In this document: positions 4,665-21,035 of the stretch, in pieces
Numbering within the stretch: the first letter of the stretch is position 1
How the letters are laid out: every line of letters starts with the position of its first letter
NCBI GenBank assembly: GCA_027452245.1
Contig: DAIDGW010000214.1
Location: 1-50,283 of the forward strand
Origin: Acidobacteriaceae bacterium
GTDB taxonomy: Bacteria; Acidobacteriota; Terriglobia; Terriglobales; Acidobacteriaceae
Reading direction: 5' to 3'
Length of the DNA: 50,283 bases
Notes under the pieces: generated by a model
Database searches by the model: none
What the model saw: only the letters and a program-made list of their open reading frames with translations
Told to the model about the DNA's origin: nothing
Translations under genes and position numbers: made by a program

Positions 4665-5366
4665 TCAGTTTGCTGCCGCACTCCTGGCTTCGAGAGCTGC
4701 TGCGCCATACGGCCTGCCGGCATCGCGCTCCGCCTGCAGGGCCGCGACATTCATCTCTTTTTCCAGCGACGAAAACCGCTGCAGAATTTCGTGGATACGC
4801 AAAGTCATGTTCCGAATCGTCTCAATCTGCGCGCGCGCCTGTGCCGAAAGCGTTCCGGGCTCGAGCAACAGCAGATCCGAGTTGCCTAACACCGACGTCA
4901 AAGCGTTGTTCAGGTTATGCCGCATCTCGAGCATGTAGCGGCCCAGCGTTGCTTGCCGATCCAGATTGGCGCGCTCCACTTCGGCGGTACGCGCCCGTAC
5001 CTCCGCTCGCGAACGGAGCACTGCCTCTGCAGCCGCCGGAACCAGGATATCGACCCAGTTTTCTTCCTCGCGCATCAGGTAAATGCGCGGCCAGCGTTCG
5101 CGCACGAGTTGTGCCGTAGCCCGATCGTGATGGAGGTAAAAAATCGGCTGGCCGGTGGAATGCAGAGGTTCGAGAACAACCGAGAGGAGATCGCGCCGCA
5201 AATCTCCCAGAATAGCCACGTCGAAAGCATCGACAGCAAACCGCGGCCACAGTTCCCCGCTCAGCATGGTGAACGTGGGGAGACTCCGCTCCATCTGCCA
5301 GCGCGCGCTGATGCGGCGGGAGAAATCGGCGTCGTCAGAAATAATCAGTACTGTCGGCTGTTCCAC
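4665..5366 (-). CDS. receiver-like plus histidine-phosphotransfer (DHp) protein without ATPase domain
   Basis: A 233-residue protein in two parts. Residues 1-115 have receiver fold spacing: acidic pocket ISDDAD (9-14) and a possible phospho-acceptor D55 in VAILGDL, but the usual Lys-Pro near the end is absent (IYLMREEENW). After a coiled-coil linker (115-140), residues 140-200 read as a histidine-kinase dimerisation domain with the H-box MRHNLNNALTSVLG (H150). The sequence then stops after an Ala/Arg-rich tail; no N, G1 or G2 ATP-binding box exists. It therefore cannot autophosphorylate and resembles phosphotransfer proteins such as Spo0B or ChpT in principle, though those keep a remnant ATPase fold. 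Third gene of the PilZ operon. Alternatively, a partner that must dimerise with another kinase. Confidence 0.75.
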   Translation of the reverse strand: MEQPTVLIISDDADFSRRISARWQMERSLPTFTMLSGELWPRFAVDAFDVAILGDLRRDLLSVVLEPLHSTGQPIFYLHHDRATAQLVRERWPRIYLMREEENWVDILVPAAAEAVLRSRAEVRARTAEVERANLDRQATLGRYMLEMRHNLNNALTSVLGNSDLLLLEPGTLSAQARAQIETIRNMTLRIHEILQRFSSLEKEMNVAALQAERDAGRPYGAAALEARSAAAN

Positions 5367-5410: not shown

Positions 5411-6550
5411 TTAGCTTTCGGAAGACGATCCGGAATCCGAAGAGACTTCGAATTCGGGAGCTTCATTCTTTGCGGGAGTAAGTTTTCCCGCTGCCTTGAC
5501 TGGGGTCTTGGGATTGGCCGGCTTTGCGATTGACGATCCAGCGGCGGGAACGCTGGCTGCCGCCGCTTTTGCCATCGGCTTGCCGATTGGAACCGGAGTC
5601 CTTTGAGAGAGTGGTTTCGAGACCGGAGCGGGTGTTGGAGCTGTCGCTGGCTTCGCTGCCGCAGGTTGAGCCGTTCTGCGTCCCAGCGCATATTCCACCG
5701 ACGCCCGCAAGTCCACCAGCATACGCAAAGGCTGCCCGGAGGAATACTCTGCCTGAAACATTACCTTCCACGACTGGCAGATCATGCGCAGCCGGGAGAT
5801 TGGCTCATCCGCCGAAAACTGTGCCCGGCGGCAATCCAGCGTCTGAATTCCCTTGTTCTCCAACTCATTCAAACCGTCGAGAATGACATTCAGATCGGCA
5901 TGCATGAGGCGGAAGAAGACGCGCCGCATCAGATATCCGAAGCGCGTGAAGGCCACCAGGGCAACCGGCAGGAAGAACAGGTCGCCGGCCTGCAGCTTGG
6001 CCTTGCGCCCCTGGGCGAGAATGCCGCCATGCAGAAGTTCGTCGAGCGAGGTGCAACGGCGGGCCGACTCGCGCACCCGGTCCAGCGCATTCAGCCATAC
6101 CGGCATCTTCAAGTCCACCGGGCCAAGCACCGGCTCCAGCGCATTGGCCACAAAACCCATGTCCACTTCCGCTTCATTCACCTGCGAGGGCGCAATCTGG
6201 CTGAAATACTGCACCAGCAGGAAATCAATCTTGTCGCGCACTGCGTCGGACTTGGCCGCATTCCCGAGATGATGCTTCAGCAGTTGCACCAGGCTTTCCT
6301 GATCGACCAGCGCGCTGGTCTGGAGAAACTGTCGCAACTGATGCACCTGGATCTTGGCGTCCATGTCGCTGAGCCAGCGGCTGGCATGCTCCACCGCATC
6401 CCGCCCGGGCGCTTCCACACCAGCTTCCAGATCGGGACACGGCTGCACGTCAATCACGAACTCACGTGCCAACTCGAAATAAATGGGATAGAGCCGCCGA
6501 GCAGCGATCCATTTGGCGGCGAGGTCTTGTACAGAGGTTGATGGGTTCAT
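5411..6550 (-). CDS. unknown helical protein with Ala/Pro/Lys-rich tail
   Basis: A 379-residue protein I do not recognise. Residues 1-290 are predicted mostly helical with no membrane segment and no enzyme motif visible; residues about 170-235 (GILAQGRKAKLQAGDLFFL, then FGYLMRRVFFRLMHADLN) look like a compact conserved core. Residues 295-379 are a low-complexity, Ala/Pro/Lys/Ser-rich tail, acidic and serine-rich at the very end (EVSSDSGSSSES). The start ATG overlaps the stop of the PilZ gene in an ATGA, so the two are translationally coupled, and the phosphotransfer and CheR-like genes follow. Context suggests a signalling scaffold or output protein of the PilZ module; nothing in the sequence proves it. 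Confidence 0.8.
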   Translation of the reverse strand: MNPSTSVQDLAAKWIAARRLYPIYFELAREFVIDVQPCPDLEAGVEAPGRDAVEHASRWLSDMDAKIQVHQLRQFLQTSALVDQESLVQLLKHHLGNAAKSDAVRDKIDFLLVQYFSQIAPSQVNEAEVDMGFVANALEPVLGPVDLKMPVWLNALDRVRESARRCTSLDELLHGGILAQGRKAKLQAGDLFFLPVALVAFTRFGYLMRRVFFRLMHADLNVILDGLNELENKGIQTLDCRRAQFSADEPISRLRMICQSWKVMFQAEYSSGQPLRMLVDLRASVEYALGRRTAQPAAAKPATAPTPAPVSKPLSQRTPVPIGKPMAKAAAASVPAAGSSIAKPANPKTPVKAAGKLTPAKNEAPEFEVSSDSGSSSES

Positions 6551-6861
6551 GATTTTACGATCCAGTTGGGGACCTCTCCCCGAAATCGGGCCGCGACCAC
6601 AGTCTTTCCGGGATGGTATTGGACGGCGACGACGGAAGTCTCCACATCAAGGGATCCATCGGCATTCCGCAGCCGCACTATATCGGCAAACTCCAGGGGA
6701 GACGTGCAGGCAAACAGCACCTCGCGCGGGGTTCCGTACTCGATGACCGTGCTTTCGCTGAAGTTAGACCCGGCATTGCCGTCGCGAGTGAACGAACGAG
6801 CGAGTTGAACGGGAATGCGAACGGGAGTGGCTTCGGGGAAAAAGCGGGCGAGCCCGGCCAC
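6547..6861 (-). CDS. PilZ-domain-like protein
   Basis: A protein of 104 residues from GTG 6861, chosen because a GGAGAG ribosome-binding site precedes it; the frame stays open to a GTG at 6996 (149 aa), which has no such site. The sequence runs RIPVQLARSF, then STVIEYGTPREVLF, FADIVRLRN and VVAVQYHPGKTVVAARF, the beta-barrel pattern of PilZ domains seen in acidobacterial proteins. The classical c-di-GMP-binding RxxxR and D/NxSxxG boxes are only weakly matched, so nucleotide binding is uncertain. First gene of the leftward operon; its stop overlaps the next ATG. PilZ proteins usually act as c-di-GMP-dependent adaptors for motility or polysaccharide synthesis. Confidence 0.65.
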   Translation of the reverse strand: MAGLARFFPEATPVRIPVQLARSFTRDGNAGSNFSESTVIEYGTPREVLFACTSPLEFADIVRLRNADGSLDVETSVVAVQYHPGKTVVAARFRGEVPNWIVKS

Positions 6862-7014
6862 GGCACTCTCCGGCTGATTGCGTGATAATCCTGTGGCTGA
6901 TTGTGCCAAGCGAATCTTTTCCTTTGGTCCCGTTCCTCTGGGTACGACCGGAACTCGACCTTCCCGGTTAGGAGGGTCTTGGAGAAACCGGTGCACCGTT
7001 GTACGGAAACACGA

Positions 7015-7030
7015 TGCACGGTGAAAACCA
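7015..7030 (-). promoter_or_regulatory. weak sigma-54 (-24/-12) promoter candidate for the PilZ operon
   Basis: Read leftward, TGGTTTTCACCGTGCA has the invariant GG-N10-GC spacing and a near-consensus -12 (GTGCA against TTGCA), but the -24 lacks CAC. It lies about 100-120 nt downstream of the TGAGA/TCTCA boxes, a normal distance for sigma-54 enhancers. Support is spacing and context only. Confidence 0.3.
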
Positions 7031-7125: not shown

Positions 7126-7149
7126 TCTCACAATGAGACGCGTGTCTCA
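7126..7149. promoter_or_regulatory. overlapping TCTCA/TGAGA palindromes, candidate activator binding site
   Basis: TCTCA-CAA-TGAGA (7126-7138) overlaps TGAGACGCGTGTCTCA (7134-7149), giving three alternating half-sites. The same TGAGAC...TCTCA arrangement occurs at 12759-12773 in front of the chemosensory operon. Dyads of this kind placed 100 nt or so before -24/-12 promoters are typical enhancer sites of NtrC-family activators, and such an activator is encoded next door. Assignment to that activator is inference. Confidence 0.45.
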
Positions 7150-7369: not shown

Positions 7370-8842
7370 TTATTGCAGTGACTGGCTGGAAGACTCGGCG
7401 CTCGCGGTGATGTTGTAACGCTTGAGCTTGCGGTAGAGGGTCGCGCGGCTGATGCCGAGCATGCGTCCCGCCAGCGTCTTGTCGCCCTTGACCTGCTCAA
7501 AGACGCGCTGGATGGTGGCTCGCTCGATATCTTCCAGATCCGTGGTCGAAGCAGCCGAGCGGGGTTCTGTGACTGCTTCATCGGAGAGGTCGTCCATCGA
7601 ATCGACAGTGGAGTCGGCAACCTCTCTGGAAAGGCTGTTGGCAAAACTGGCACTGGCGATTGCCGGGGGCAAGTCGCTGAGATCGATGATGCGTCCGTTG
7701 CCCAGGGCGACGGCGCGTTCCACGCAGTTTTCCAGTTCGCGGACGTTGCCCGGCCAGTCATATTGCATCAGGGCTTTCATGGCGGCATTGGCAACCCGCA
7801 AGTCCGTTCCCGGAGCGTAGCGTTCCAGGAACCAGTGCACGAGCATGGGAATGTCGCTGCGGCGCTCGCGCAATGCCGGCACCTGCACCGTGACTACGTT
7901 GAGGCGGAAATAGAGATCCTTTCGGAAATTCCCGGCTTTATAAGCGGTTTCGAGGTCGCGGTTGGTGGCGGCGATAATGCGTACGTCAACCTTGACGCGC
8001 TGGTTGCTGCCCACGGGACGAACTTCTTTTTCTTGAAGAACACGCAGCAGTTTGGCCTGCAACTCCAGCGGAAGTTCGCCGATTTCGTCGAGAAAAACCG
8101 TTCCCCCGTCGGCAGACTGGAACAATCCCTGTTTGGATTTCAATGCGCCGGTAAATGCGCCTTTTTCATAGCCGAACAGTTCGCTCTCGATCAGGGTCGG
8201 AACCAACGATCCGCAATCGACCGCCACGAAAGGCTGGGCTGCGAAGGCGCCGCGGAAGTGAATGGCGCGCGCAACCAATTCCTTGCCGGTACCGCTTTCC
8301 CCTGAAATCAGGACCGGAGTGCGTGTGTCTTTGAGCCGGGCCACCATCCGCAAAACTTCCTGAATTTTTGCCGACGAGCCGACGATGCCGTGCACGGCGG
8401 TTTCCGAATCCATGCGCTGGCGCAGGAATTCGTTTTCTTCGACCAGACGAACTTTTTCCGCCATACGCCGCAGAAACAACCGGAGTTCTTCGAGAGGCGA
8501 AAACGGCTTTGTAATGTAGTCGTACGCACCCAGTTTCATCGCTTGCACCGCGGTCTCGATCGAACCGTGGCCGGTCATCAGGGCAACTTCAATGCGTGGC
8601 AGAACCTTTTTTACTTTCTCCAGGAATTCCAGCCCCGACATGTGCGGCATCACCATGTCCGTCAGGACCATGTGAGCCGGCTGCTCTTCCAGCAAAGCCA
8701 GGGCGGCATCGCCGCTTTCAGCTTCGAGGCACACAAAGCCCAGCGCCTCGCCGACGGTGATGCAGAGTTTGCGGATGCTCTGTTCGTCGTCGACGACCAG
8801 CAGCCGAATGCGAAGATCTTCTTTGGTTAGTGGTTTGCTCAC
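7370..8842 (-). CDS. NtrC-family sigma-54 activator (receiver-AAA+-Fis)
   Basis: A 490-residue bacterial enhancer-binding protein. Receiver domain at 12-125 with D62 as phospho-acceptor and K at TKP (112). The AAA+ domain has Walker A GESGTGKE (181-188), the sigma-54-contacting loop GAFTGA (228-233) intact, Walker [10 protein letters not shown] and the sensor/R-finger region [10 protein letters not shown]. The C terminus carries a Fis-type helix-turn-helix ([19 protein letters not shown]). It starts at GTG, overlapping the stop of the single-domain regulator in GTGA, as third gene of a kinase-regulator-activator operon. It should remodel sigma-54 RNA polymerase at promoters bearing its sites; the sigma-54 promoter at 12918 is the obvious target. 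Confidence 0.95.
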
Positions 8843-9240
8843 TGGGCCTTTCCTATCGTCTTCGAGACAACATCGATAAACTGCTGCACGCGAAACGGTT
8901 TCTCTACGCAGGGAGCGCCGGTCGCCCGCAACGTGGCCACAGTTTCTTCGTTGGCTATGTCGCCGGTGATGAAGACAATCTTGGATACGAGGTCAGGACG
9001 GTTCTGCGCGATCCAGGCATGCACCTGGGCTCCGTCCACACCGCCGGGCGTGCGCATGTCGGAGACTACGCCAAGAAAATCTCCCTTTTCCAGCAGGCGC
9101 AGAGCATCAATGCCGGACTCGCAGCACACGACGGGATATCCGCTGCGTTCGAGCGCCGCCTGCACATAGGCCATGACGGCTGGCTCGTCTTCAATCAGCA
9201 GCACGGGATACGGCGTAGGTTGGAAGGCTGGAAGGCTCAT
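8839..9240 (-). CDS. single-domain response regulator
   Basis: A 133-residue stand-alone receiver. The frame is open further upstream, but ATG 9240 (MSLPAFQPTPYPVLLIEDE) is the true start by homology-like pattern and because it overlaps the kinase stop as ATGA. Acidic pocket IEDE (16-19), phospho-acceptor D61 in VVSDMRTPGG, and K114 in VEKPF are all present. There is no output domain, so it either competes for or relays phosphate between the large kinase and the sigma-54 activator whose genes flank it on both sides. Confidence 0.93.
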   Translation of the reverse strand: MSLPAFQPTPYPVLLIEDEPAVMAYVQAALERSGYPVVCCESGIDALRLLEKGDFLGVVSDMRTPGGVDGAQVHAWIAQNRPDLVSKIVFITGDIANEETVATLRATGAPCVEKPFRVQQFIDVVSKTIGKAQ

Positions 9241-12200
9241 GGTTGACGAACTCCCGCAGCGACTCCGACGGAAGCGGAGTGCGACGTTGCTGGCAGGCGG
9301 ACGACGAAAGTCGCTCCTCGCCCATCGCTGTTGTTGTGACAAAGGATTTCGCCGCCGTGCTCTTTCACGATGCCATAGCAAATGCTGAGCCCCAGGCCGG
9401 TTCCTTTGCCAATTTCCTTGGTGGTAAAGAAAGGATCGAAGATGCGGTCGGGATAAGTAATACCGGGCCCGTTATCACGGAATGAAATTTCCACAGCGCC
9501 TCCCGCCTTCGTAGTCATGATCTCAATGCGGGCGGCGCCGCCGGTTTCGTGCACCGCGTCATACGCGTTGTTGAGGATGTTCAGGAACACCTGCTGCAAC
9601 TGATGCGCGTCTCCGATCACGTCGGGAAGGTTCTCATCCAGGTTCTGGATGACATCAATACCGTGACTGTTGAAGTCGTAGGAGCGCAGTTGCACGGTGC
9701 GGCGCAAGACCAGGTTGATCTGTACCGCATTGCGCTGCGGCGGCATTTGCCGGGCGAAACTGAGCAGGTTCTGTACGATCTGCTTGGTCCGCTGCGCTTC
9801 CTGCAGAATGACGCGAAGGTCTTTGCGGGCCGCCTCGGGAATCTCGGGATTCTGCAGCAGCAGATCAGAAAATCCGAGGATGGCAGTGAGCGGATTATTC
9901 ACTTCATGGGCAACACCCGAAACCAGTTGTCCCACAGCAGCCATTTTTTCCGCATGCAGAAGCTTGTCCCGCAGAATAGCGGAATCGGTGATGTCCGTGA
10001 GGACAACCACGATGCTGGTTACGTTTCCCTGCTCGTCCCGCATGGGGCTGAGGTTGGCGGAAAACCTGCCGGGAGTTCCTCCGCCACGCATAATTGCAAG
10101 TTCCAGATTGTCTACTTCGTGTCCCTCCAGCGTGTTCTGTAAGCCGTTTGAAAATGCTGAAACGTCATCGGGAGAAACCAGTTCCAGCACTGGCCGGCCG
10201 AGCAAATCGCGCTGTTCGAAGCCCGCATTGGACCAGCGGCGGTTCACGTAACTGATCAGGCCGGCCGTATCGGCCACCACGATCAGGCTCTGCGTATTGT
10301 TGAGAATTTTTTCGGAGAAGTCCCGCTCCCGATGCAACTCAGACTGATAGGTCCGCAATCCGGTCACATCCAGGGCCAAGCCACGGATCTGTAAAAGATG
10401 TCCGTCGGTGTCGTACAAGCCGAAGGAATTCAGCAACACGTGAATGGGAGATCCGTTTTTGCGCCGGAGGGTGGCTTCAAAGTTCCGCAGATTGCCATCG
10501 CGCACTAAAACTTCAATCTGCCGGCGCCGATCCTCAGGGGAGAAATAGAGAGTGTTTGGAATATCGACTTGCAGTAGCTCTTCCCGGCTGCTGTAGCCGA
10601 GCATGCGAACCATCGCGTCATTCACTTCAATGAATCTGCCATCCGGAGTGCTGAAGAAAAGACCTTCCTGAATGTTGTCGAACAACTCGCGATAGCGGCG
10701 TTCCGCTTCTCGCCGGTCGGTAATGTCCTTCAGGATGTGAATGGTTTGCAGGCCATCCCCGCTGGCGGCATTGACGCGTGACGTTGAAACCAGGTAGGTC
10801 CGGTCCATCACCGGGTGCACAAATTCGTCCGCGGTATCGTCGCTCGAACGGCAGAAGGGACACGAATAAGGCACGGCATCCCCGGCAATCGCCAGCAGCG
10901 ACCGCATACTCACGCCGATCAGTTCGGAGGTTGGCACCCCGATCATTTCCGAAAGTGACCGGTTGGCGTGCAGAACATTGTCGTGCGAGTCGTGGACGAC
11001 GATGAAATCGGTGATGGCATCGAAGAGTTCGAGCCAGTGACGGTTCAAGGCCTCGGCACGGTGCCGGTGCTGCTCGGAAAGATGCAGATTGCGCGCAACT
11101 TCAAGCACCACGGCAACCTGATTCGATAATGCGCGGGCGCGGCGAATATCTTCTTGTGAAATGCCCGTTCCGTCGAGCCGATCGAGCACCCCGAACATGC
11201 CCAAAACGTCGCCATTCGCGCCCAGCAAGGGCAACGCTAACAGTTGGTGGACTTCGTATCTTTGTATCGCTTCCAGATTGGCGCCAGGAAGCTTTGCCGC
11301 ATCGTCAGACCAGAACACTTCTTTTGCGCGCAGCGCCTGGGTCGCAATGCCTTCCGGAAAAATATCGTCGGCGGGAGTTGGTTCGCCACGAGTCGCCCCA
11401 TAACGGACGCGGAACACTCCCTCTTCCTGCAGAGCAATGAAGCAGCGCCCGAAATTCAGGAAATCGCCCGCGTGCAGAACGAAGGCTTGCAGCACATGTT
11501 CCAGGTCGCCGCTCGAATTCAGCTCCGAAGCAATCTCCAGCAGTTGATGAAGTTCATGCGCCTGGGCTTGTGAGGTGGCGGATAGTTCCGCGTGAGCGAG
11601 AGCAACCGCGCCAAAGCCGGCAATGGCCGCGACCAGCGCACGTTCTTCGCTGGTAAATGCAATCTCGGAGCGCGGGTAAATGAGGATGGCGCCTTGAGTA
11701 CGCGAGGTGCGGAATGGTGCGGCGATCAGCATACCGGCAGAGACCAGGCTGCCCAAGGAATGCGCATCGGCACTCACGGACACGCTGATGGGCTCTCCCG
11801 CGGAGACGGCACGCTGGGCCAAATCCGCGGCAAACCTTATCGTCTGGCGATCGTGCCGCGCCCGCACGGAGTTCGCCAATTGAGGAGTCTCAGCCGAGAC
11901 TGCCCGCAACTCAAACGGGCCTTCCCGGCGCAACAGGATACAGACCAGGCGGGTGCGCAGAAGCATGCGCAGCCGGTCGGCCAGAGCTTCCACCAATGAC
12001 GAAACGTCGGGCGTAGCGTGCAACGTCTGCGCCACATCGGCGAGAATCTCCACGCGGCGATGCTCCTCGCGAGAAACCTCGGTCAACCGGCTTGCCTCCA
12101 GCAGCGTGCTCAGCTGTCCCGTCAGGATTGTGACTTTGGCTGCCATATCGGGCGTGAAGAAATCCGGGTCGGAATCGTGCAAAAAGGTCAGGACGCCGAT

Positions 12201-12659
12201 AGTTTCGTTAAAAACAACCAGGGGGGCAGCCATGAACGCCCGCGCCTCAAACTGATGACCTCCAGGAAACTCCGGCGGAGCAATGTGATTGGCGAATACC
12301 GACCGGTGGGTGCGCACAGCCTCGGTCACCAGGGCCATCAGTTGGGGATGCAGGCGCAGTCCTTCAATGCGGTCGGAAAACTCACCCTCGCCCTGTTGGC
12401 CGACAAATTCCGTCGGAGATTGCGCGCGCCAGAAATAGACTCCGGAAACCTGAAAAAATTCTCGGGCGCCGGTGCAGAGCAATCGAATCAGAGCCTCGGG
12501 CTGCAGCCGGTCCGTTGCGCCCGCCGAGATTCGCAGCAGCAGGTCTTGGAACCGCCCGTCCGACCCGGACGAGGGCAGCTGAGACGAGATGATGCCCGAG
12601 TTGCGACCGAACTGACTTACGTCGCTACCGCTTGTAGAAGAAACGGGTTCGCGATTCAC
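9237..12659 (-). CDS. soluble multi-GAF/multi-PAS sensor histidine kinase
   Basis: A 1140-residue kinase with no membrane segment. Order: GAF about 55-190, GAF 215-360, GAF 383-525, PAS 545-655, PAS 655-770, PAS 780-895, DHp 905-970 with H918 in VAHEVNNPLTAILGF, then the ATPase domain (NAYDAV, DNGPGI, GKGTGLGLSI). The first PAS holds a CPFC pair (C600, C603), which could bind metal or form a redox disulfide. It begins at GTG with AAGGA just upstream. It heads the leftward kinase-regulator-activator operon, divergent from the chemosensory operon, so it is the likely input for sigma-54 control there. The signal is probably cytoplasmic. Confidence 0.95.
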   Translation of the reverse strand: MNREPVSSTSGSDVSQFGRNSGIISSQLPSSGSDGRFQDLLLRISAGATDRLQPEALIRLLCTGAREFFQVSGVYFWRAQSPTEFVGQQGEGEFSDRIEGLRLHPQLMALVTEAVRTHRSVFANHIAPPEFPGGHQFEARAFMAAPLVVFNETIGVLTFLHDSDPDFFTPDMAAKVTILTGQLSTLLEASRLTEVSREEHRRVEILADVAQTLHATPDVSSLVEALADRLRMLLRTRLVCILLRREGPFELRAVSAETPQLANSVRARHDRQTIRFAADLAQRAVSAGEPISVSVSADAHSLGSLVSAGMLIAAPFRTSRTQGAILIYPRSEIAFTSEERALVAAIAGFGAVALAHAELSATSQAQAHELHQLLEIASELNSSGDLEHVLQAFVLHAGDFLNFGRCFIALQEEGVFRVRYGATRGEPTPADDIFPEGIATQALRAKEVFWSDDAAKLPGANLEAIQRYEVHQLLALPLLGANGDVLGMFGVLDRLDGTGISQEDIRRARALSNQVAVVLEVARNLHLSEQHRHRAEALNRHWLELFDAITDFIVVHDSHDNVLHANRSLSEMIGVPTSELIGVSMRSLLAIAGDAVPYSCPFCRSSDDTADEFVHPVMDRTYLVSTSRVNAASGDGLQTIHILKDITDRREAERRYRELFDNIQEGLFFSTPDGRFIEVNDAMVRMLGYSSREELLQVDIPNTLYFSPEDRRRQIEVLVRDGNLRNFEATLRRKNGSPIHVLLNSFGLYDTDGHLLQIRGLALDVTGLRTYQSELHRERDFSEKILNNTQSLIVVADTAGLISYVNRRWSNAGFEQRDLLGRPVLELVSPDDVSAFSNGLQNTLEGHEVDNLELAIMRGGGTPGRFSANLSPMRDEQGNVTSIVVVLTDITDSAILRDKLLHAEKMAAVGQLVSGVAHEVNNPLTAILGFSDLLLQNPEIPEAARKDLRVILQEAQRTKQIVQNLLSFARQMPPQRNAVQINLVLRRTVQLRSYDFNSHGIDVIQNLDENLPDVIGDAHQLQQVFLNILNNAYDAVHETGGAARIEIMTTKAGGAVEISFRDNGPGITYPDRIFDPFFTTKEIGKGTGLGLSICYGIVKEHGGEILCHNNSDGRGATFVVRLPATSHSASVGVAAGVRQP

Positions 12660-12678
12660 AAGTCCTTGTAATCTAAAG

Positions 12679-12694
12679 GGAAACTATCCTGCCA
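12679..12694 (-). promoter_or_regulatory. weak leftward sigma-54 promoter candidate, proximal
   Basis: Read leftward, TGGCAGGATAGTTTCC matches the -24 TGGCA and a partial -12 (TTTC for TTGC). The predicted start is about 10 nt before the kinase GTG. The invariant GC of the -12 is not kept, which lowers confidence. Confidence 0.25.
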
Positions 12695-12717
12695 TCTCAA
12701 TTTGAGTCAAGGGAAAT

Positions 12718-12733
12718 GGCTTAGAAGGTGCCC
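12718..12733 (-). promoter_or_regulatory. weak leftward sigma-54 promoter candidate, distal
   Basis: Read leftward, GGGCACCTTCTAAGCC keeps the GG-N10-GC spacing and the GGCAC of the -24, with a degenerate -12 (AAGC). It would give a kinase leader of roughly 48 nt. The TGAGAC palindrome lies 26 nt upstream of it. Confidence 0.3.
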
Positions 12734-12758
12734 AGGTATGAAATCCCGCGCCAAATCT

Positions 12759-12773
12759 TGAGACGGAATCTCA
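12759..12773. promoter_or_regulatory. TGAGA...TCTCA palindrome, candidate enhancer site
   Basis: TGAGACGGAATCTCA has 5-bp inverted arms and lies about 145-160 nt upstream of the rightward -24/-12 promoter, with another half-site TGAGAC at 12806-12811. It shares its half-site with the boxes at 7126-7149. It is a plausible binding site for the Fis-HTH activator encoded at 7370-8842. Confidence 0.45.
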
Positions 12774-12917
12774 GCTTGAGAATACCCACGGGAAGAATAC
12801 CGCAGTGAGACGCCAGCGATTACCTCTTTCTCCTGGCGCAACCACATTCCAGGAATTAATTCCATTGTTTTCATGAACATGTCGCGCGTGACTTTGGTTT
12901 TTTCTTGAGCGCCTGCA

Positions 12918-12933
12918 TGGCCCGACCGTTGCA
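12918..12933 (+). promoter_or_regulatory. sigma-54 (-24/-12) promoter of the chemosensory operon
   Basis: TGGCCCGACCGTTGCA fits the sigma-54 consensus TGGCACG-N4-TTGCA at every fixed position except one (A to C in the -24 box). The predicted start is near 12945, leaving a leader of about 24 nt with the strong ribosome-binding site AAGGAGGAG before GTG 12968. An NtrC-type activator with an intact GAFTGA loop is encoded divergently, as expected for such a promoter. Confidence 0.75.
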
Positions 12934-12967
12934 CATTCTGCCGTGCGTCTCTCTGTAAGGAGGAGTT

Positions 12968-13309
12968 GTGTCTCGAATACCGACTGCAGCATTACTCGCA
13001 GTTTTGATGGCTGGAACGATTACTCCCGGAGTGGTAAAGGCCCAGCAAGCTCAGAATCAAGATTTTATCCGGCGAGCCAAGACTAAGGTCGAGCCGACTT
13101 ATCCCGATCTCGCCCGCAAGATGAACATCACCGGAACGGTGAAGGTCGAAGTGGTGGTAGCTCCCAATGGAATTGTCAAAGATGCCCGTGTCGTTGGTGG
13201 ACATCCGTTGCTGGCGCAGGCTGCGATAGAAGCAGCCAGGAAATGGCGCTTTGAACCAGCCGCGGGAGATAGCACCGGCATTATCGAGTTCAAGTTTGAC
13301 CCGCGCTAG
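12968..13309 (+). CDS. secreted TonB C-terminal-domain protein
   Basis: A 113-residue protein starting at GTG behind a strong AAGGAGGAG. Residues 1-25 are a signal peptide (LLAVLMAGTITPGVVKAQ). The rest is a single TonB C-terminal fold: VEPTYPDLARKMNITGTVKVEVVVAPNGIVKDARVVGGHPLLAQAAIEAARKWRF. The membrane anchor and proline-rich arm of a working TonB are missing, so it cannot link ExbBD to an outer-membrane receptor. Being the first gene of an operon that continues with an MCP, it could be a periplasmic binding partner of that receptor or of the cell envelope. Such stand-alone domains are common in Acidobacteriota, but their role is not known to me. Confidence 0.88.
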   Translation: MSRIPTAALLAVLMAGTITPGVVKAQQAQNQDFIRRAKTKVEPTYPDLARKMNITGTVKVEVVVAPNGIVKDARVVGGHPLLAQAAIEAARKWRFEPAAGDSTGIIEFKFDPR

Positions 13310-13333: not shown

Positions 13334-15313
13334 ATGACAATTGGCAAGAAGCTCTACATAAGTTTTGGAATCATCCTGAGCATGGTGGTCGTGCTGTTCT
13401 TGGTCAACTGGCTGGCCGTGCAGCGGGAACACTCGGCGAAAGCGGCGGCCGCGGCTTCGCTGGAACTGGCCGAAGAAACCAACGCTGTGCGCTTTCAGAT
13501 GATGCAGAACCGTCTCTATCTGAGCAATTACCTGCTCAGCGGCGACACGCGCGAAATCGACCGCATGAATGATGGGCTGCGCATCCTGAATGACAAGCTT
13601 TCCAAAGGCAAGGAACTCGCCAATTCCGAGCAGGAAAAAAGTGCGCTGGACAAAGTGCAGCAATTGGAACAGTCCTGGGCCAAAGAGTTCGCCCAACCCC
13701 TGATCGAAAAGCGCAAGGACGTCGATTCCGGTAACGCCACTGTGGCCGAACTGCAGATTTACTACCTGCAGAAAGACGCTGCCTCGTGGGTGAAGAATTC
13801 GACCGATGCCCTGGATCAAGCGGATGAAGAAAATCGCAAGCTGCTGGACGAGCGCCGCAAGTATGACGAAGCCGCGGCGACCGGAACCATCATCATCTCG
13901 CTGCTGACCACATTACTGGGCCTGGGACTCGGCGGCGTCATTGCCTATCGTACGGCCAATGCCATTACCGAACCTTTGGGCAATCTGATGAACGTCGCGC
14001 GCCAGATCGGCGATACCGGAGATCTGGAGCACTCCATTGATCTCAAACGCAACGACGAAATTGGCGAACTGGCCCGTACCTTCGCCAAGATGGTTGTCTA
14101 TCTGAAGGAAATGGCGGGCGTCTCGGAATCCATTGCTGGCGGCGACCTTACGGTGGAAGTGAAACCGCGATCCTCGCACGACACGCTAGGCAATGCCTTC
14201 GTTCGCATGGTCGAAGGATTGGCAGGTCTGGTCCGCAGCGTGCGCGACGCATCGTCTCAGGTGGCGAGCGCTGCCAATCAGGTTGCGGGAGCCTCCGACG
14301 ATTCCGCCAAAGTTGGCCTGCAGGCCTCGTCCGCCATTGATGAAGTTACCAGCACCATGCACGAAATGAGCGTCAACGTACAGAACATGGTGAAGAGCAC
14401 GCAAGTCCAGGCGTCGAGCGTTAGCGAAACCTCGGCGTCCATCGATCAGATGGTGGCCTCGATTCAACGCGTCGCCGACACCGCCAAGGTTCTGCTCGAT
14501 ATCTCAAACCGCTCACGCGAGGAAGTCCACAGCGGTATCACGACGATGGAAAAGGCAACGGACGGACTGAATCGCATTAACACTACGATCACTTCTTCCG
14601 GAGAGATCATTGGAGCACTGGGCCAACGGGCCGATGATATTGGAAAGATCATCGAAGTCATCGACGATCTGGCCGAACAGACGAACCTGCTGGCGCTGAA
14701 TGCTGCCATCGAAGCTGCCCGCGCCGGCGAGCACGGATTGGGTTTTGCGGTGGTCGCTGACGAAGTTCGCAAGCTGGCAGAGAAATCGGCGCAATCCACG
14801 AAGGAAATCTCCGAACTCATCCAGAGCATTCAGAAAGAGGCTCGCAAAGCGGTCGAGAACATGGACCGCTCGACCGGCATCGTCAATGAGGGCCTGGAAC
14901 TCGGCGGCGAACTGAATGCCGCCCTGCGAAAAATATCCAACGTGGTCACTGAAGTCTACAAGTTCGCGCAGGAGATCGGTGCGGCCACCAACGAGCAGTC
15001 CCATGGGTCTTCGCAGATTGCCCGCGCAACCACGCGTTTGAACGAAATCACCCACGAAATCAATTCCGCGGTGGAAGAGCAGGCTTCCGGAGCGCAGGCG
15101 GTAGTAAAAGCCATGGAGCGCATGCGGGAACTGGTGCAGCAGTCCACTTCGGGTTCGACCGAACTGGCGGCTTCTTCGGAACAGATGTCGAAGATGTCGC
15201 GCGGACTGCTCGAGTTCATGGACCGTTTCGCACTGGCCGAAGCATCCCGCGGCCTGGGCAAAGAAGAATCCGGACGGGGCGCTCGCCGCGCCGCCGCCGG
15301 ATCACAGTTCTGA
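13334..15313 (+). CDS. methyl-accepting chemotaxis protein
   Basis: A 659-residue transmembrane chemoreceptor preceded by GGAGGAGG. TM1 is at about 8-27, followed by a roughly 155-residue helical periplasmic domain (four-helix-bundle type, 'NRLYLSNYLLSGD'), TM2 at about 186-206, HAMP-like segments to about 290, and the signalling domain. The CheA/CheW-binding hairpin tip EQTNLLALNAAIEAARAGEHG and the flanking AVVADEVRKLAEKSA are canonical. Glu/Gln pairs typical of methylation sites lie on both arms. The C terminus has no NWETF-type tether for CheR. It is the only receptor in the cluster, so this array probably has one dedicated input. Confidence 0.96.
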   Translation: MTIGKKLYISFGIILSMVVVLFLVNWLAVQREHSAKAAAAASLELAEETNAVRFQMMQNRLYLSNYLLSGDTREIDRMNDGLRILNDKLSKGKELANSEQEKSALDKVQQLEQSWAKEFAQPLIEKRKDVDSGNATVAELQIYYLQKDAASWVKNSTDALDQADEENRKLLDERRKYDEAAATGTIIISLLTTLLGLGLGGVIAYRTANAITEPLGNLMNVARQIGDTGDLEHSIDLKRNDEIGELARTFAKMVVYLKEMAGVSESIAGGDLTVEVKPRSSHDTLGNAFVRMVEGLAGLVRSVRDASSQVASAANQVAGASDDSAKVGLQASSAIDEVTSTMHEMSVNVQNMVKSTQVQASSVSETSASIDQMVASIQRVADTAKVLLDISNRSREEVHSGITTMEKATDGLNRINTTITSSGEIIGALGQRADDIGKIIEVIDDLAEQTNLLALNAAIEAARAGEHGLGFAVVADEVRKLAEKSAQSTKEISELIQSIQKEARKAVENMDRSTGIVNEGLELGGELNAALRKISNVVTEVYKFAQEIGAATNEQSHGSSQIARATTRLNEITHEINSAVEEQASGAQAVVKAMERMRELVQQSTSGSTELAASSEQMSKMSRGLLEFMDRFALAEASRGLGKEESGRGARRAAAGSQF

Positions 15314-15354: not shown

Positions 15355-15849
15355 ATGAAAGGCGAACTCCATATCGTGGGCTTCCAGGTGGGACGCGAAA
15401 CGTACGGCGTGCCCATTACTTCCCTGCATGAGATCGTGCGGGTACCGGAAATCACCGCCGTCCCCGATGCGCCTGATTATCTGGAGGGAGTAATCAACCT
15501 GCGCGGCAAGATCGTCTCGGTCATGGACCTGCGCAAGCGCTTTGGCGAAAAGCAGGTGGACCTGAAAAAGCAGAATCGGATTCTGGTGGTTGAACATGCC
15601 GGCAGGCTGGCAGGTTTGATCGTTGACTCCGCGTCGGAGGTGCTGAAGATCCCCGCGGAGGACGTGGAAGCGCCTCCCGCCGTGTTCCAGGAAGGCGGTC
15701 TCAACTGCGTCACCGGGTTGGGAAAAGTGAAGGGCAGGCTGGTGGTGCTGTTAGATATGAGCAAGTTAATGGCGGCCGGAAATCTCCAGCAAACGAGTAA
15801 TCCAGAAGCAAAACCCAAGGCAGAAACACGGGGAGCCGCGGCCCGATAG
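15355..15849 (+). CDS. cheW: CheW coupling protein
   Basis: A 164-residue CheW that links receptor to CheA. The SH3-like fold is clear: LHIVGFQVGRETYGVPI, then IVRVPEITAVPDAPDYLEGVINLRGKIVSVMDLRKRFG with the conserved NLRG turn, and GLIVDSASEVLKIP. A C-terminal tail of about 20 residues is Pro/Lys/Ala-rich and not part of the fold. It lies 41 nt after the MCP, with a GAGGAG ribosome-binding site. Confidence 0.96.
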   Translation: MKGELHIVGFQVGRETYGVPITSLHEIVRVPEITAVPDAPDYLEGVINLRGKIVSVMDLRKRFGEKQVDLKKQNRILVVEHAGRLAGLIVDSASEVLKIPAEDVEAPPAVFQEGGLNCVTGLGKVKGRLVVLLDMSKLMAAGNLQQTSNPEAKPKAETRGAAAR

Positions 15850-15893
15850 ATGGCGTACATGCAATCACAACCGAACAGGTGACAGGAACCAGC

Positions 15894-16805
15894 ATGAGCA
15901 CATTCGGAGCAGCACCTGCTCCCATATTGACAGAAGCGGAACTGAAGCTGTTGCAGGCGCTCGTGTATCAGGAATGCGGCATGCACTTCGACGAACGCCG
16001 CACGCACTTTCTGCAGGACCGACTGCTGCGCCGGCTGCGCGAATGCCAGGTGGATTCGTTCTATTCCTACTACCGGCTGCTGATCAGCCAGGAGGGCAAA
16101 GACGAACTCGCCAAGCTGCTGGAAAACCTGACGGTCAACGAAACCAGTTTCTTCCGCCATAAGGCGCAGCTGGATCTGTTCCAAAAGTACGTACTCGAAG
16201 ACCTGTTCAAGCAGAAGCAGATGCGCCGCGAGTACTCGATTCGCGTGTGGAGCGCCGGATGTTCCACCGGCCAGGAAGCGTACACGCTGTCGATGCTGGT
16301 CACGGATGCGCTCGCCTACTACTACCTTCGCAATCCCTTGCCGATGGAATTACCGATGCCCAAGCCGATGATCCCACCGCCCTGGCGGGTGGAAGTTCTG
16401 GCCAGCGACATCAGCTACTCGGTTTTGCGCGCCGGGCAGGAAGGCACGTACAGCGAAACCCAGATGAATTCGGTCGACTACGGATACCGCCTGCGCTACT
16501 TCGACAAAGTAGGCGAGCGCTATGCGGTGAAGAAAGCCCTGAAAGAAATGGTGCATTTCGATTTTCACAATTTGAAGACCGAGTACCTGCCCCAGCGTAA
16601 TGACGTGATCTTCTGCCGCAACGTGATGATGTACTTCGATGAAGCCGAGCAGAAACGGCTGATCGAAAAGTTCTACCGTTGCCTGAATCCGAATGGATAC
16701 CTGTTCGTCGGACACGCCGAAAGCTTGCTGGGAGTAACCAAGAAATTCCAGATGGTACACCGCGACAGCGGAACGGCGTACCAGAGGGTTGAGGTGAAAG
16801 AGTGA
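15894..16805 (+). CDS. cheR: CheR chemoreceptor glutamate methyltransferase
   Basis: A canonical CheR that uses SAM to methylate receptor glutamates. I chose ATG 15894 (MSTFGAAPAPIL), which has AGGA 6 nt before it, over the in-frame GTG 15879. The N domain contains the basic helix THFLQDRLLRRLRE and the VNETSFFRHKAQ box; the SAM pocket is VWSAGCSTGQEAYTLSM; the catalytic segment is DVIFCRNVMMYFD, and the end reads YLFVGHAESL. All boxes are intact, in contrast to the CheR-like protein at 3563-4591. Its stop overlaps the CheA start (GTGA). Confidence 0.96.
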   Translation: MSTFGAAPAPILTEAELKLLQALVYQECGMHFDERRTHFLQDRLLRRLRECQVDSFYSYYRLLISQEGKDELAKLLENLTVNETSFFRHKAQLDLFQKYVLEDLFKQKQMRREYSIRVWSAGCSTGQEAYTLSMLVTDALAYYYLRNPLPMELPMPKPMIPPPWRVEVLASDISYSVLRAGQEGTYSETQMNSVDYGYRLRYFDKVGERYAVKKALKEMVHFDFHNLKTEYLPQRNDVIFCRNVMMYFDEAEQKRLIEKFYRCLNPNGYLFVGHAESLLGVTKKFQMVHRDSGTAYQRVEVKE

Positions 16806-18937
16806 ATCACTCTTCCGATGAGCGTGGCGCAGAACTGCGAGAGTTGTTTTTTGAGACCTCGCAGGAACTGCTGCAGGCGCTGAATGATGAGGCGCTCAAG
16901 CTGGAAAAAAAGCCCGGCGATGAAGAAATCGTCCGGAGCATCCGGCGCACGGCGCACACGCTCAAGGGCGACTCGGCAGCTTGCGGACTGCGCGAAATCA
17001 GCGAACTCGCCCACCAGTTCGAGGACGCGCTTTCGGTGGAAGGAGCCACCGCCAATGCCGCCGTTGCCGAAATTGCCTTCCAGGTAACCGATGTTTTTGG
17101 CGAGATGATCTCCGCCTACCGCAAAGGCAGCAAGCTTCCGTCTACCACCTCGTTGAGCAAGAAGATCAAGGCCTTGACCTCGGCTCCTGCGGTCCGGAAG
17201 TCCCGCGGCAAGAAGGCGAAGTCGATCGCCAAGCCTTCGGAGTGGACGGAGTACGAAAAGTTATCGATGACGCAAGCCCAGGCGAGCGGGATGGCGGTGT
17301 ATCACGTCGTCGCCAAAATCGATCCGCACTGCGCCATGCCGATTGCCGGACGGCAACTGATTCAGAACGGTGCGGCGGCCGCCGGTCGCGTATTAGCGAT
17401 CCGCCCCGATCCCAAATCTCCTGCCGCAGTCAAGCAGGTGGAACTGGTCGTAGCGACCTCGGGTGCTCCGGAACAGATTGAAGCTCGATGCAAGATTCCT
17501 ACCATTGCCGAGGAAGTTTCGGTGGAGTTGATGTTGGCCGCAGTCGAAATCATCGATCCCGCGGTCAACGCGGCAGCCCAAACAATTCCAGATCCGGCGC
17601 AGCCTCTCCCGTCTAAATCTGAGAGTGGGGCCGCCGAGAACAGCGCGGTACAGAGTACGACCGAGAACATTCTGCGCGTCGAAGCCGGCCGCATCGATAA
17701 CGTGTTGAACCTGGTCGGCGAACTGATCATCGGCAAGTCCATGCTGCAACAGGCGCTAAGTGAGTTTTCCAAACGTTATCCGCGGGAGTTGTTGCGCAGC
17801 ACATTCGCCGACGCCATGGCGTTTCAGGCGCGCGTACTCAACGATCTGCAACGCTCGGTCATGAAAATCCGCATGGTGCCCGTCGATCAACTCTTCCGCC
17901 GCTTCCCGCGCATCGTTCGGGATGTGGCGCGGCAGTGCAGCCGCGAAGTCGAACTGGTGGTCAGCGGACAAGACACCGATCTCGATAAAGGTATCCTCGA
18001 CGCCATCGCCGAACCCCTGACCCACATGGTGCGCAATGCCGTCAGTCACGGCATCGAGTCGCCAGAGGATCGCAGAAAAGCCGGGAAGGCGGCGCAGGGC
18101 ACGGTGCGGCTGAACGCCTATCACCAGGGCAATCAGGTCATCGTTGAAGTCAGCGATGATGGCCGCGGCCTCGACGCACAGCGCATTCGTGCCAAAGCGA
18201 TCGAACTTGGCTTTGTCAGCCCCGACGAATCATCGCGTCTCAGCGATTCGGAGGTAACAGACTTCATCTTCCGTCCCGGATTCAGCACGGCCGAGCAGGT
18301 CACGGAAGTTTCGGGACGTGGCGTCGGCATGGATGTCGTGCAAAGTGTCCTCCACAGGCTGAAGGCGACAATCACGGTGGAAACGCGTCCGGGCCAGGGC
18401 ACAACCTTCCGCCTCAAGCTGCCTTTGACTCTGGCCATCATCAAGGCCCTGCTTTTCTGGGTGGAACAGCGGCTTTACGCGATTCCCCTGAACGCGGTGG
18501 TCGAGATCGCGCGCACCACCGAAGCCGAAGTTCATCAGGTGGATAACTATGAAGTGCTGCAATTGCGGAATCAGGTGCTGCCGGTATTGCGCCTGGGACG
18601 ACCGCAATTGGTCGGGGAAGAAGGCAAGACCCACAAATTGTTCGTGCTCGTCATCACGGTTGGAGAAAGGAAGTACGGATTGATCGTAGATGCACTGGAA
18701 GGCGAAGAAGAATTGGTGATCAAGGCGTTGGATGACCAGACCTTCTCGACAGATCTGGTGTCGGGCGCTTCGATCCTAGGGGACGGACGCGTGGTGCTGA
18801 TCCTGAATCTGCCGGCGGTCGTCGAACATTTTGCGCACTCCCGGCCGCAGGAATCCGGCCGAGTACATTCCGGGCTGCTGCTCACCGCAACGGACCGCAT
18901 GCGTTTCGCCATGACACAGGCGGGAGGTCGGGCATGA
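16802..18937 (+). CDS. cheA: CheA chemotaxis histidine kinase
   Basis: A 711-residue CheA starting at GTG inside the cheR stop. P1 Hpt domain at 10-110 with H52 in HTLKGDSAACG; a basic linker; a P2-like domain around 155-250 (YHVVAKIDPHCAMPIAGRQL); P3 dimerisation helices at about 290-370; P4 ATPase with HMVRNAVSHGIE, DDGRGLD, RGVGMDVV and GQGTTFRLKLPL; and a P5 CheW-like domain from about 555. No receiver domain is fused. It phosphorylates CheY (20096) and CheB (18934). Coupled by 4-nt overlap to both neighbours. Confidence 0.97.
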   Translation: MNHSSDERGAELRELFFETSQELLQALNDEALKLEKKPGDEEIVRSIRRTAHTLKGDSAACGLREISELAHQFEDALSVEGATANAAVAEIAFQVTDVFGEMISAYRKGSKLPSTTSLSKKIKALTSAPAVRKSRGKKAKSIAKPSEWTEYEKLSMTQAQASGMAVYHVVAKIDPHCAMPIAGRQLIQNGAAAAGRVLAIRPDPKSPAAVKQVELVVATSGAPEQIEARCKIPTIAEEVSVELMLAAVEIIDPAVNAAAQTIPDPAQPLPSKSESGAAENSAVQSTTENILRVEAGRIDNVLNLVGELIIGKSMLQQALSEFSKRYPRELLRSTFADAMAFQARVLNDLQRSVMKIRMVPVDQLFRRFPRIVRDVARQCSREVELVVSGQDTDLDKGILDAIAEPLTHMVRNAVSHGIESPEDRRKAGKAAQGTVRLNAYHQGNQVIVEVSDDGRGLDAQRIRAKAIELGFVSPDESSRLSDSEVTDFIFRPGFSTAEQVTEVSGRGVGMDVVQSVLHRLKATITVETRPGQGTTFRLKLPLTLAIIKALLFWVEQRLYAIPLNAVVEIARTTEAEVHQVDNYEVLQLRNQVLPVLRLGRPQLVGEEGKTHKLFVLVITVGERKYGLIVDALEGEEELVIKALDDQTFSTDLVSGASILGDGRVVLILNLPAVVEHFAHSRPQESGRVHSGLLLTATDRMRFAMTQAGGRA

Positions 18938-20034
18938 ACCAGGGTCCAGTACGCGTTCTGGTCGTCGACGATTCGGCACTCATGCGGAAGCTGATTCCCC
19001 AGATGCTCGAAACCGACAGCTCCATCCAAGTCGTGGGAACGGCCATGGACGGGCAGTTCTGCCTGAAGAAGATTGAGGAACTGCGGCCCAACGTCATCAC
19101 TCTCGACCTGGAGATGCCCGGCATGAACGGCATCGACACGTTGAAAGAGATCATGCGGCGGCAACCCATCCCGGTGATTGTTTTCAGTTCGCACAGCACG
19201 GAAGGTGCGTCGGTCACCATGAAGGCGCTTGGCCTGGGAGCTTTCGACTTCCTGACCAAGCCGAAAGATACCGCTTCGCACATGGCGGAGACCGCAGCCG
19301 AACTGACCGCTAAGGTCAAAGCTGCAGCCGAGTGCAAGCTGAAACCGCGGCCCATGCCGGGCATCATCCCGCGTCCGGAAAAGCGCGAAGTGGTATCGGC
19401 GGCTACGGTTCCGAGCAAAGTCGTCGCCATCGGAATTTCCACCGGTGGCCCGCAGGCACTCGAATATCTGCTCGCACAACTGCCGGGCGATTTTCCCGCT
19501 TGCATCCTGGTGGTGCAGCATATGCCCGAAGGCTTCACTGAGATGTTCGCGCGGCGGCTGGATGAGACCTGCGCGTTGCGCGTGAAAGAAGCTCAGTCGG
19601 GAGACTTGCTGCAGGCCGGACGAGTACTGATTTGTCCCGGCAGCCGCCACTTAAAGGTAAAACGGATGCCTCTGGGAGACATCGCGATTCTCACCGACGA
19701 TCCCCGGGTCAATGGGCACCGCCCCAGCGCCGATGTGTTATTGAAGAGTGTCGCCGAAGAGTTCCGCACGCAAGCCATCGGACTCCTGATGACGGGCATG
19801 GGCGACGACGGTGCCGAAGGCCTGGGCGCCATCAAGAAATCGGGCGGAGTGACGATTGCCCAGAGTGAAGATTCCTGCGTGGTCTTCGGGATGCCGAAGG
19901 CGGCAATCGAGCGTGGTTACGCATCGCGCGTGGTTTCTCTGGACGTGCTTTCATCGACGCTACAAGCCGTCTGCGGCCGCAATAATTCAGGAGAAGTGGG
20001 TGGTAATGGCAAGGCGATGCACGCTGTCAGTTAA
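18934..20034 (+). CDS. cheB: CheB receptor methylesterase
   Basis: A 366-residue protein with a receiver (D58 in ITLDLEMPGMNG, K109) and a C-terminal methylesterase/deamidase. The catalytic triad is visible: S169 in GISTGG, H196 in VVQHMPEGF, and the Asp in MTGMGDDGAEGL. It removes methyl groups placed by CheR, so adaptation is complete in this cluster. The ATG overlaps the CheA stop (ATGA). A 60-nt gap separates it from cheY. Confidence 0.97.
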   Translation: MNQGPVRVLVVDDSALMRKLIPQMLETDSSIQVVGTAMDGQFCLKKIEELRPNVITLDLEMPGMNGIDTLKEIMRRQPIPVIVFSSHSTEGASVTMKALGLGAFDFLTKPKDTASHMAETAAELTAKVKAAAECKLKPRPMPGIIPRPEKREVVSAATVPSKVVAIGISTGGPQALEYLLAQLPGDFPACILVVQHMPEGFTEMFARRLDETCALRVKEAQSGDLLQAGRVLICPGSRHLKVKRMPLGDIAILTDDPRVNGHRPSADVLLKSVAEEFRTQAIGLLMTGMGDDGAEGLGAIKKSGGVTIAQSEDSCVVFGMPKAAIERGYASRVVSLDVLSSTLQAVCGRNNSGEVGGNGKAMHAVS

Positions 20035-20095: not shown

Positions 20096-20536
20096 ATGGA
20101 GCAGTTTGCACCAGTAAAACGCAGCAAAGATGGGCAACCGGTTCGCTACTTAATCGTGGATGACTCGGTCTTTGCCCGGAAAAATCTCGCCCGCATGATT
20201 GAAACTTTCGGCGGGCAGGTGGCCGCCGAGGCCGGCGACGGCTTGACCGCCATCAGCGAGTTCGACCGCACCCATCCCGACATCGTGCTCATGGACATCA
20301 CCATGCCGCAGATGGAAGGCATTGAAGCGGCCGAGCGCATCGTGCAGCAGCATCCTGAGGCGCGCATCGTCATGGTCTCATCGGTGGGCTACCAGGAAAA
20401 TATTGTCGCGGCATTGCAGCGCGGCGCGCGGCATTTCGTGCAGAAACCCGTGAAGCCGGAAGTTCTGTATGAAGTGATCAAATATGTAATGGGAGAAGAC
20501 GGCGCGGTGGCGCAGAGCGCCGGCGCAGGGGCCTAA
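20096..20536 (+). CDS. cheY: CheY-like response regulator
   Basis: A 146-residue single receiver with D67 (VLMDITMPQMEG), acidic pair VDD (21-23), T/S at VSS (94-96) and K117 in VQKP. An N-terminal extension of about 15 residues and an Ala/Gly-rich tail flank the fold. It is preceded by GAGGAGG and followed after 4 nt by cheX, so it is the probable diffusible output of this CheA. No flagellar genes lie in the window; the output could be pili or another target. Confidence 0.93.
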   Translation: MEQFAPVKRSKDGQPVRYLIVDDSVFARKNLARMIETFGGQVAAEAGDGLTAISEFDRTHPDIVLMDITMPQMEGIEAAERIVQQHPEARIVMVSSVGYQENIVAALQRGARHFVQKPVKPEVLYEVIKYVMGEDGAVAQSAGAGA

Positions 20537-20540
20537 GTCC

Positions 20541-21035
20541 ATGAAGATGGAATTGATTCAGCCCTTCATCAACGCGGCTGACGCGGTGTTGTCGCAGGGT
20601 CTGCACGGCAGGACCAAGGTGAACAATCTCACCATGGAAGAGGATGCGTATCGCCGCAAGGGCGTGGCCGGCATGATCGCTTTAACCGGCGACATCGAAG
20701 GACGCATCGTGCTTGATCTGGAGCCGCAGACGGCCGTACGCGTGGCCAGCCATTACGCCGGAGCCGAACTGCCGGAATCGGATTCGCTGATCAAAGAGAC
20801 CATCTTTGAACTGGCGAACCAGGTCGTCGGCAATGCCATTTCCGCGCTCAACGACCAGGGATTCAAATTCCGCGTCCATCCGCCTGTCTTGCTGACGGCC
20901 GATCAAGGCGACGGCAGCAGTGAAGACGTCGAGGCGCTGATGATTCATTTCGAAACGGCCATGGGTGACGTCTTCATGAACGTCGCGCTGCGCCATAATC
21001 CGCAGCGGATGAAGGAACACGCCGTCGGAGCGTAA
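20541..21035 (+). CDS. cheX: CheX-type CheY-P phosphatase
   Basis: A 164-residue protein of the CheC/CheX/FliY family. The family's catalytic helix with Glu and Asn is present as ETIFELANQVVGNAISAL (around residues 88-105), and the N-terminal half GMIALTGDIEGRIVLDLEP has the expected beta pattern. One such helix fits CheX, which works as a dimer and dephosphorylates CheY-P. It ends the chemosensory operon, directly after cheY. No cheD is present. Confidence 0.88.
   Translation: MKMELIQPFINAADAVLSQGLHGRTKVNNLTMEEDAYRRKGVAGMIALTGDIEGRIVLDLEPQTAVRVASHYAGAELPESDSLIKETIFELANQVVGNAISALNDQGFKFRVHPPVLLTADQGDGSSEDVEALMIHFETAMGDVFMNVALRHNPQRMKEHAVGA

Follow-up and report, generated by a model that had tools for sequence, protein, structure and literature searches.

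Two operons lie back to back in the DNA of an Acidobacteriaceae bacterium, one encoding a histidine kinase with its regulators and the other a set of chemosensory (che) proteins. This arrangement raises the question of which promoters serve the two operons and whether the regulator encoded on one side switches on the genes of the other. In the present study, we analysed a stretch of 50,283 nucleotides (hereafter the window). It makes up contig C214 in a genome of 6.2 Mb, where a gene for RpoN was also found. The earlier note had proposed one control region common to the kinase operon and the che operon, and our results agree: the arrangement is divergent and conserved elements face both sides.

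The leftward operon starts with a multi-GAF/PAS histidine kinase of 1140 amino acids (9237-12659, minus strand; Pfam), to which each of the 24 same-genus relatives has a strong match. Its maximum 19-residue hydropathy, 1.79 at residue 341, falls within a GAF match, and the kinase is likely soluble. The open frame is about 1290-1360 amino acids in most uncut genus relatives, and these longer frames apparently hold an extra internal segment. The kinase is followed by a stand-alone receiver (8839-9381, minus strand; Pfam Response_reg; the listed ORF is probably too long at its 5' end) and by an NtrC-family response regulator (7370-8842, minus strand), hereafter the activator. In this protein Pfam matched a receiver, an AAA+ domain with GAFTGA and a Fis-type HTH, the features of NtrC-family bacterial enhancer-binding proteins. 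The GAFTGA motif, which had been reported before in this operon, was confirmed at 8144-8161 and is invariant among 18 aligned orthologues. The activator stays below the NCBIfam equivalog cut-offs for NtrC (436.4 vs 558.6) and AtoC (442.7 vs 714), and it is the sole gene of the block with a Pfam DNA-binding-domain match. The rightward operon, on the plus strand, begins with a TonB C-terminal-domain (TonB-C) protein of 113 amino acids with a GTG start and a hydrophobic N-terminus (12968-13306). The following genes, all assigned by Pfam, encode a methyl-accepting chemotaxis protein (MCP, 13334-15313), CheW (15355-15849), CheR (15879-16805), CheA (16802-18937), CheB (18934-20034), a CheY-like receiver (20096-20536) and CheX (20541-21035). 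A search of the window against Rfam at gathering scores gave no match.

Orthologues of CheA were found in 24 of 151 class genomes (E at most 5.2e-200; next match 1.7e-120), and activator orthologues were found in the same 24 (E at most 1.5e-190; next match 9.3e-155). The gene block, including the leftward genes p3 and p4 discussed below, is largely conserved in 20 loci from outside the genus, with identities to the window ranging from about 34% (p3) to 79% (CheY). The exceptions are the TonB-C protein, not found in L078, a proper receiver, not found in L079 and L093, and p3/p4, not found in L080 and L084. For comparison of the control region, the 24 same-genus relatives were reduced to the 21 with both sides on the contig (without L004, L018 and L034), all of which keep the divergent arrangement, and the window brought this set to 22 regions. 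The genus-level set drew in addition on 41 loci, leaving out those without a TonB-C match, the truncated L050 and the unrelated L076. After the removal of 19 duplicates it comprised 36 distinct regions, 35 of them complete; the truncated L043 was counted for the promoter only, and L075, which diverges most from the others, possibly belongs to another genus. Of the 22 module loci from outside the genus, 20 were taken for the class set (without G180 and G188), and 18 remained after L087 and L088, which have no upstream region; L078, with its TonB-C match absent, was positioned by the palindrome.

The che operon has its predicted sigma-54 (-24/-12) promoter at 12918-12933 on the plus strand (TGGCCCGACCGTTGCA), and by a simple score it is the top plus-strand site of this kind in the intergenic region. 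The earlier note had described it as almost consensus, and we found it there with a single mismatch and the GG-N10-GC spacing. It does precede the che operon as claimed, although the first gene downstream encodes the TonB-C protein and not a chemoreceptor. A -24/-12 motif in one sequence alone is weak evidence, and it is conservation that lends it significance. The pattern TGGC-N7-TTGCW occurs four times within the window, and the consensus with up to two mismatches gave 14 matches against 10.1 expected, among which 12918-12933 is the sole one with a single mismatch. Conservation of the box in relatives had been set beforehand as the test. Each of the 36 distinct genus-level and 18 class-level regions (54/54 in total) carries TGG-N8-KTGC ahead of the che operon. 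When the spacer of 8 was replaced by 4-7 or 9-13, matches dropped to 0-1 of 35 genus regions and 0 of 15 class regions (palindrome-bearing regions). A rough spacing control, with the spacer one base longer and GTGC only, matched in 0 of 24 module genomes and once elsewhere among the 151. We read the che box as real and under selection, a chance match being very unlikely on this pattern of conservation. A T-rich box (ACTTTGGTTTTTTC-like) was also noticed at 12890-12904, 29 bp upstream of the -24 element; the pattern matched in 17 of 22 regions, the window's copy is a variant form, and the box was not evident among the class-level loci.

Further upstream, a palindrome at 12769-12781 (plus strand; TCTCAGCTTGAGA, TCTCA-N3-TGAGA) is predicted to be the upstream activator site (UAS), 149 bp before the -24 box. 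Its exact form was found in all 35 complete genus regions and in 15 of 18 class regions, and the distance from its start to the box is 145-152 bp in the genus-level set and 153-167 bp in the class set. The three class loci in which the exact palindrome is absent (L089, L091 and L095) keep half-sites and promoter. In addition, an extra half-site TGAGAC is conserved at 12806-12811 (plus strand), and a TGAGA half-site stands downstream of the exact dyad in 35/35 genus regions and in 15/15 class regions having that dyad. A different dyad had been pointed out before, TGAGA-N5-TCTCA at 12759-12773 (plus strand); it is present, but only 11 of 22 regions keep it, and the conserved dyads are instead TCTCA-N3-TGAGA at 12769-12781 and TCTCA-N3-TGAGT at 12695-12707. 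A minus-strand GGCAC stretch between both palindromes (window about 12728-12755) recurs in 32 of 35 genus-level regions; it was rejected as a sigma-54 promoter, as its -12 half is not conserved.

On the kinase side the picture is of another kind. The second palindrome, at 12695-12707 (plus strand; TCTCAATTTGAGT), overlaps the -35 of a sigma-70-like promoter of the kinase operon at 12681-12710 on the minus strand (TTGACT-N18-TAGTTT), which is predicted from conservation and from a promoter-scan match with the same -35. In the form TCTCAnnnTGAGTCAA, the palindrome is fused with the -35 TTGACT and extends from there into the spacer; it was found in every one of the 35 genus regions and in 17 of the 18 class regions. 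The exact form is missing in L086, and in L096 the operator lies 162 bp from the UAS, vs 62-80 bp elsewhere. The pattern TTGACT-N17/18-TAnnnT is likewise conserved in 35/35 genus and 15/18 class regions, the exceptions being L080, L084 and L096. This minus-strand region was the sole promoter-like site in the scan, with the -10 in another register. Two leftward -24/-12 candidates facing the kinase gene, put forward from the window, did not hold: TGG-N8-KTGC on that strand was found once among 35 genus regions and never among 14 class regions, and the loose GG-N10-GC in 7 of these genus regions and 5 of these class regions. Hence, sigma-54 promoters of the kinase operon were rejected; what is conserved on this side is a sigma-70-like promoter whose -35 is overlapped by the palindrome. 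Since the operator lies over the -35, and NtrC represses glnAp1 of glnALG, limiting autoregulation is by this analogy the likeliest reading of the kinase-side palindrome. The self-regulating circuit that had been suggested is thus still likely, but the operator position points to limiting autoregulation and not to sigma-54 self-activation.

The same operator occurs a third time within the window. The palindrome at 7126-7138 (minus strand), predicted to be the UAS of the p4 operon, was found in 7/7 of those genus loci whose sequence extends upstream of p4. A second -24/-12 box follows at 7015-7030 (minus strand; TGGTTTTCACCGTGCA), and in 7/7 genus loci TGG-N8-KTGC lies 98-130 bp after the dyad start. 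In loci with further genes intervening between p4 and the activator gene, the site is still next to p4. Gene p4 (6547-6996, minus strand; ORF as listed, start probably TTG 6909) is predicted to encode a PilZ-like barrel by AlphaFold and Foldseek (best Foldseek E 5e-4 and TM about 0.5 with the AlphaFold model), and there was no Pfam match for it. A hairpin-like leader with a CTTCCTAACCGGGAAG core was seen between the second box and p4 in L097, L098, L100 and L101; 4 of the 7 loci match the core pattern, and the leader is weaker in the window (6910-7014). Downstream of p4 are p3 (5411-6550, minus strand), a predicted helical protein of unassigned function by structure prediction and family search, a HisKA-domain protein (4665-5366, minus strand; Pfam) and a CheR-like methyltransferase (3563-4591, minus strand; Pfam CheR). 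In a fold search, p3 matched nothing in the PDB with E up to 0.001. The HisKA-domain protein, in which no ATPase domain was matched, is possibly a histidine phosphotransferase. In other families, the second copy of the palindrome precedes an operon different from that of p4. A -24/-12 box follows this copy in 14 of 15 distinct loci (18 rows less 3 second copies of the same genome), and L080 is without it. In L105, the one other-family locus annotated, the second operon encodes CheW, MCP, CheR, CheA with Hpt and receiver domains, and CheB. The second target in other families thus appears, from sequence, to be a second chemosensory operon.

We also counted the operator across whole genomes. In six of the 25 same-genus genomes then at hand, TCTCA-N3-TGAGA occurs 2-5 times per genome, 24 times in total. 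Twelve copies are in the cluster (2 per genome, 6/6) and 12 are elsewhere vs 11 in the reversed control, so that off-cluster palindromes in these six genomes are at chance level. The composite of UAS and half-site has 24 places, spread over 23 of 26 genus genomes, against 2 in the reversed control. All but the one in G041 were located by position, with 21 at this locus and two elsewhere (G007:C77 and G024:C1:11775). The UAS followed within 112-142 bases by TGG-N8-KTGC was found in 19 of 24 module genomes and in 2 of 127 others (reversed control 1). The combination has 23 places, of which 20 fall by position within the cluster (3 che UAS and 17 second sites) and three outside it (G061:C104, G148:C47 and G167:C7). 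It was not matched in the module genomes G053, G086, G116, G172 and G188, in a gap range (112-142) that excludes longer spacings.

Taken together, linkage and copy number suggest that regulator and operator probably belong to each other, and we think it quite likely that this activator, through this palindrome and sigma-54, activates the che operon; limiting autoregulation is less certain. Observed are the conservation, the spacing, the operator copies, the co-occurrence and the protein domains, and from these we infer binding and phosphorylation, dependence on sigma-54 and the sign of autoregulation. In the proposed circuit, the NtrC-family regulator of the leftward operon would bind TCTCA-N3-TGAGA. 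From the UAS at 12769-12781, and helped by the half-site at 12806, it would activate sigma-54 RNA polymerase at 12918-12933 and switch on the series TonB-C-MCP-CheW-R-A-B-Y-X. From the copy at 7126-7138 it would activate the sigma-54 promoter at 7015-7030 before p4-p3-HisKA-CheR-like, and at the copy that overlaps the -35 (12695-12707) it would limit expression of kinase, receiver and activator, like NtrC at glnAp1. The likely phosphate donor is the GAF/PAS kinase, gene order being what suggests that it phosphorylates this activator.

It is well established that sigma-54 promoters require an AAA+ activator, and this bears on the possibility that the che promoter is genuine but its palindromes are bound by a regulator encoded elsewhere, the adjacent activator acting on other sites. 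We have assigned the palindrome to this activator from sequence, and its HTH is of the common Fis type, both of which leave room for such a regulator. It is nevertheless improbable in our judgement, because the palindromes stand at activator distance before two -24/-12 boxes of the same cluster, activator and CheA share the same 24 genomes, off-cluster palindromes in the six genomes are at chance level, and the need for an AAA+ protein speaks for the one encoded nearby. That the che operon is transcribed mainly from an ordinary sigma-70 promoter, the -24/-12 box being a relic or a chance match, is far less probable still. The four TGGC-N7-TTGCW matches in the window would fit it, but the promoter scan found no plus-strand sigma-70-like site in 12620-13000, and the box is spacer-specific in all 54 regions.

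The alternative for the kinase side overlaps with our main reading: the palindrome there might activate the kinase operon, as positive autoregulation at a sigma-70 promoter. The site does run from the -35 into the spacer, as such a mechanism could allow, yet sites at the -35 usually block sigma-70 polymerase. NtrC also represses glnAp1 (PMC3870243), and we regard positive autoregulation as rather unlikely. We therefore retain limiting autoregulation at the kinase operon, together with sigma-54 activation of the che operon by the adjacent activator.

The closest published design that we found for the kinase side is, by analogy, glnALG of Escherichia coli (NtrB/NtrC), where NtrC activates glnAp2 (sigma-54) and represses glnAp1 (sigma-70) (PMC3870243). 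Here too, an NtrC-family regulator appears to combine a sigma-54 target with a sigma-70-type promoter of its own operon, and the sequence has the same architecture, with an operator over the own-operon sigma-70-like promoter and a UAS for a sigma-54-type promoter. Unlike in glnALG, the targets are chemosensory and signalling operons, the sigma-70-like promoter is divergent, and the activator scores below the NCBIfam NtrC cut-off. In Myxococcus xanthus, the NtrC homologue CrdA is controlled by CrdS and Che3 (PMC3510030), which likewise couples a sigma-54 regulator of the NtrC type, together with a histidine kinase, to a chemosensory system. In that case it is the phosphorylation of CrdA that the chemosensory system controls, whereas our evidence suggests a regulator that controls transcription of the che operon. 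The earlier note had held that chemosensory operons are usually driven by sigma-70 or sigma-28, and published exceptions qualify this. In Rhodobacter sphaeroides the che genes of the fla1 locus, including cheA, are activated via FleQ and sigma-54-2 (PMC7277832), and the present che genes, cheA among them, are predicted to be expressed through sigma-54 as well. In contrast to that flagellar hierarchy, FliM occurs here in no more than 4 of the 24 module genomes, and the activator is receiver-bearing and locally encoded. In Desulfovibrio vulgaris, the sigma-54 regulome table contains two chemotaxis operons; this is another phylum, and the promoters without a predicted UAS are linked to chemotaxis among other functions (PMC4641369). 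Since sigma-54-driven che genes are known elsewhere, the circuit is a new variant and not a new kind.

Our literature search, which covered titles and abstract openings with most subscription journals outside its scope, found nothing on such a circuit in Acidobacteriota and no paper on transcriptional control of their chemosensory genes. The present analysis offers a testable regulon, with operator, promoters and regulator, for the chemosensory systems of these abundant soil bacteria, and the operator motif may be used for target prediction in related genomes. It also suggests that a chemosensory array can itself be the inducible output of another sensor. A more speculative reading, which we hold to be less likely than not, is a closed master switch kept in several families of the class: a kinase/NtrC-type pair whose only targets would be its own operon and one or two complete chemosensory or signalling operons, with arrays built on demand, mostly in bacteria without FliM, and CheA perhaps signalling in return to the activator or to the stand-alone receiver.

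As to the output of the array, FliM is present in those 4 of 24 module genomes vs 70 of 127 others, a distribution that does not support a general flagellar link of the module. PilT, taken as a marker of a type IV pilus link, was matched with a best E of at most 1.8e-147 in 24/24 module genomes, and 112 of the 151 class genomes exceed the cut-off; being matched in all 151 genomes, it was uninformative as a discriminator. An output in surface motility or at the cell surface is our guess. The p3 family was found to be large, with 4664 relatives among 8000 scored candidates; the 120 relatives listed are unnamed or 'hypothetical protein', and p3 itself had no Pfam match. The window's own genome is among the four with FliM, and in this organism the output may be flagellar.
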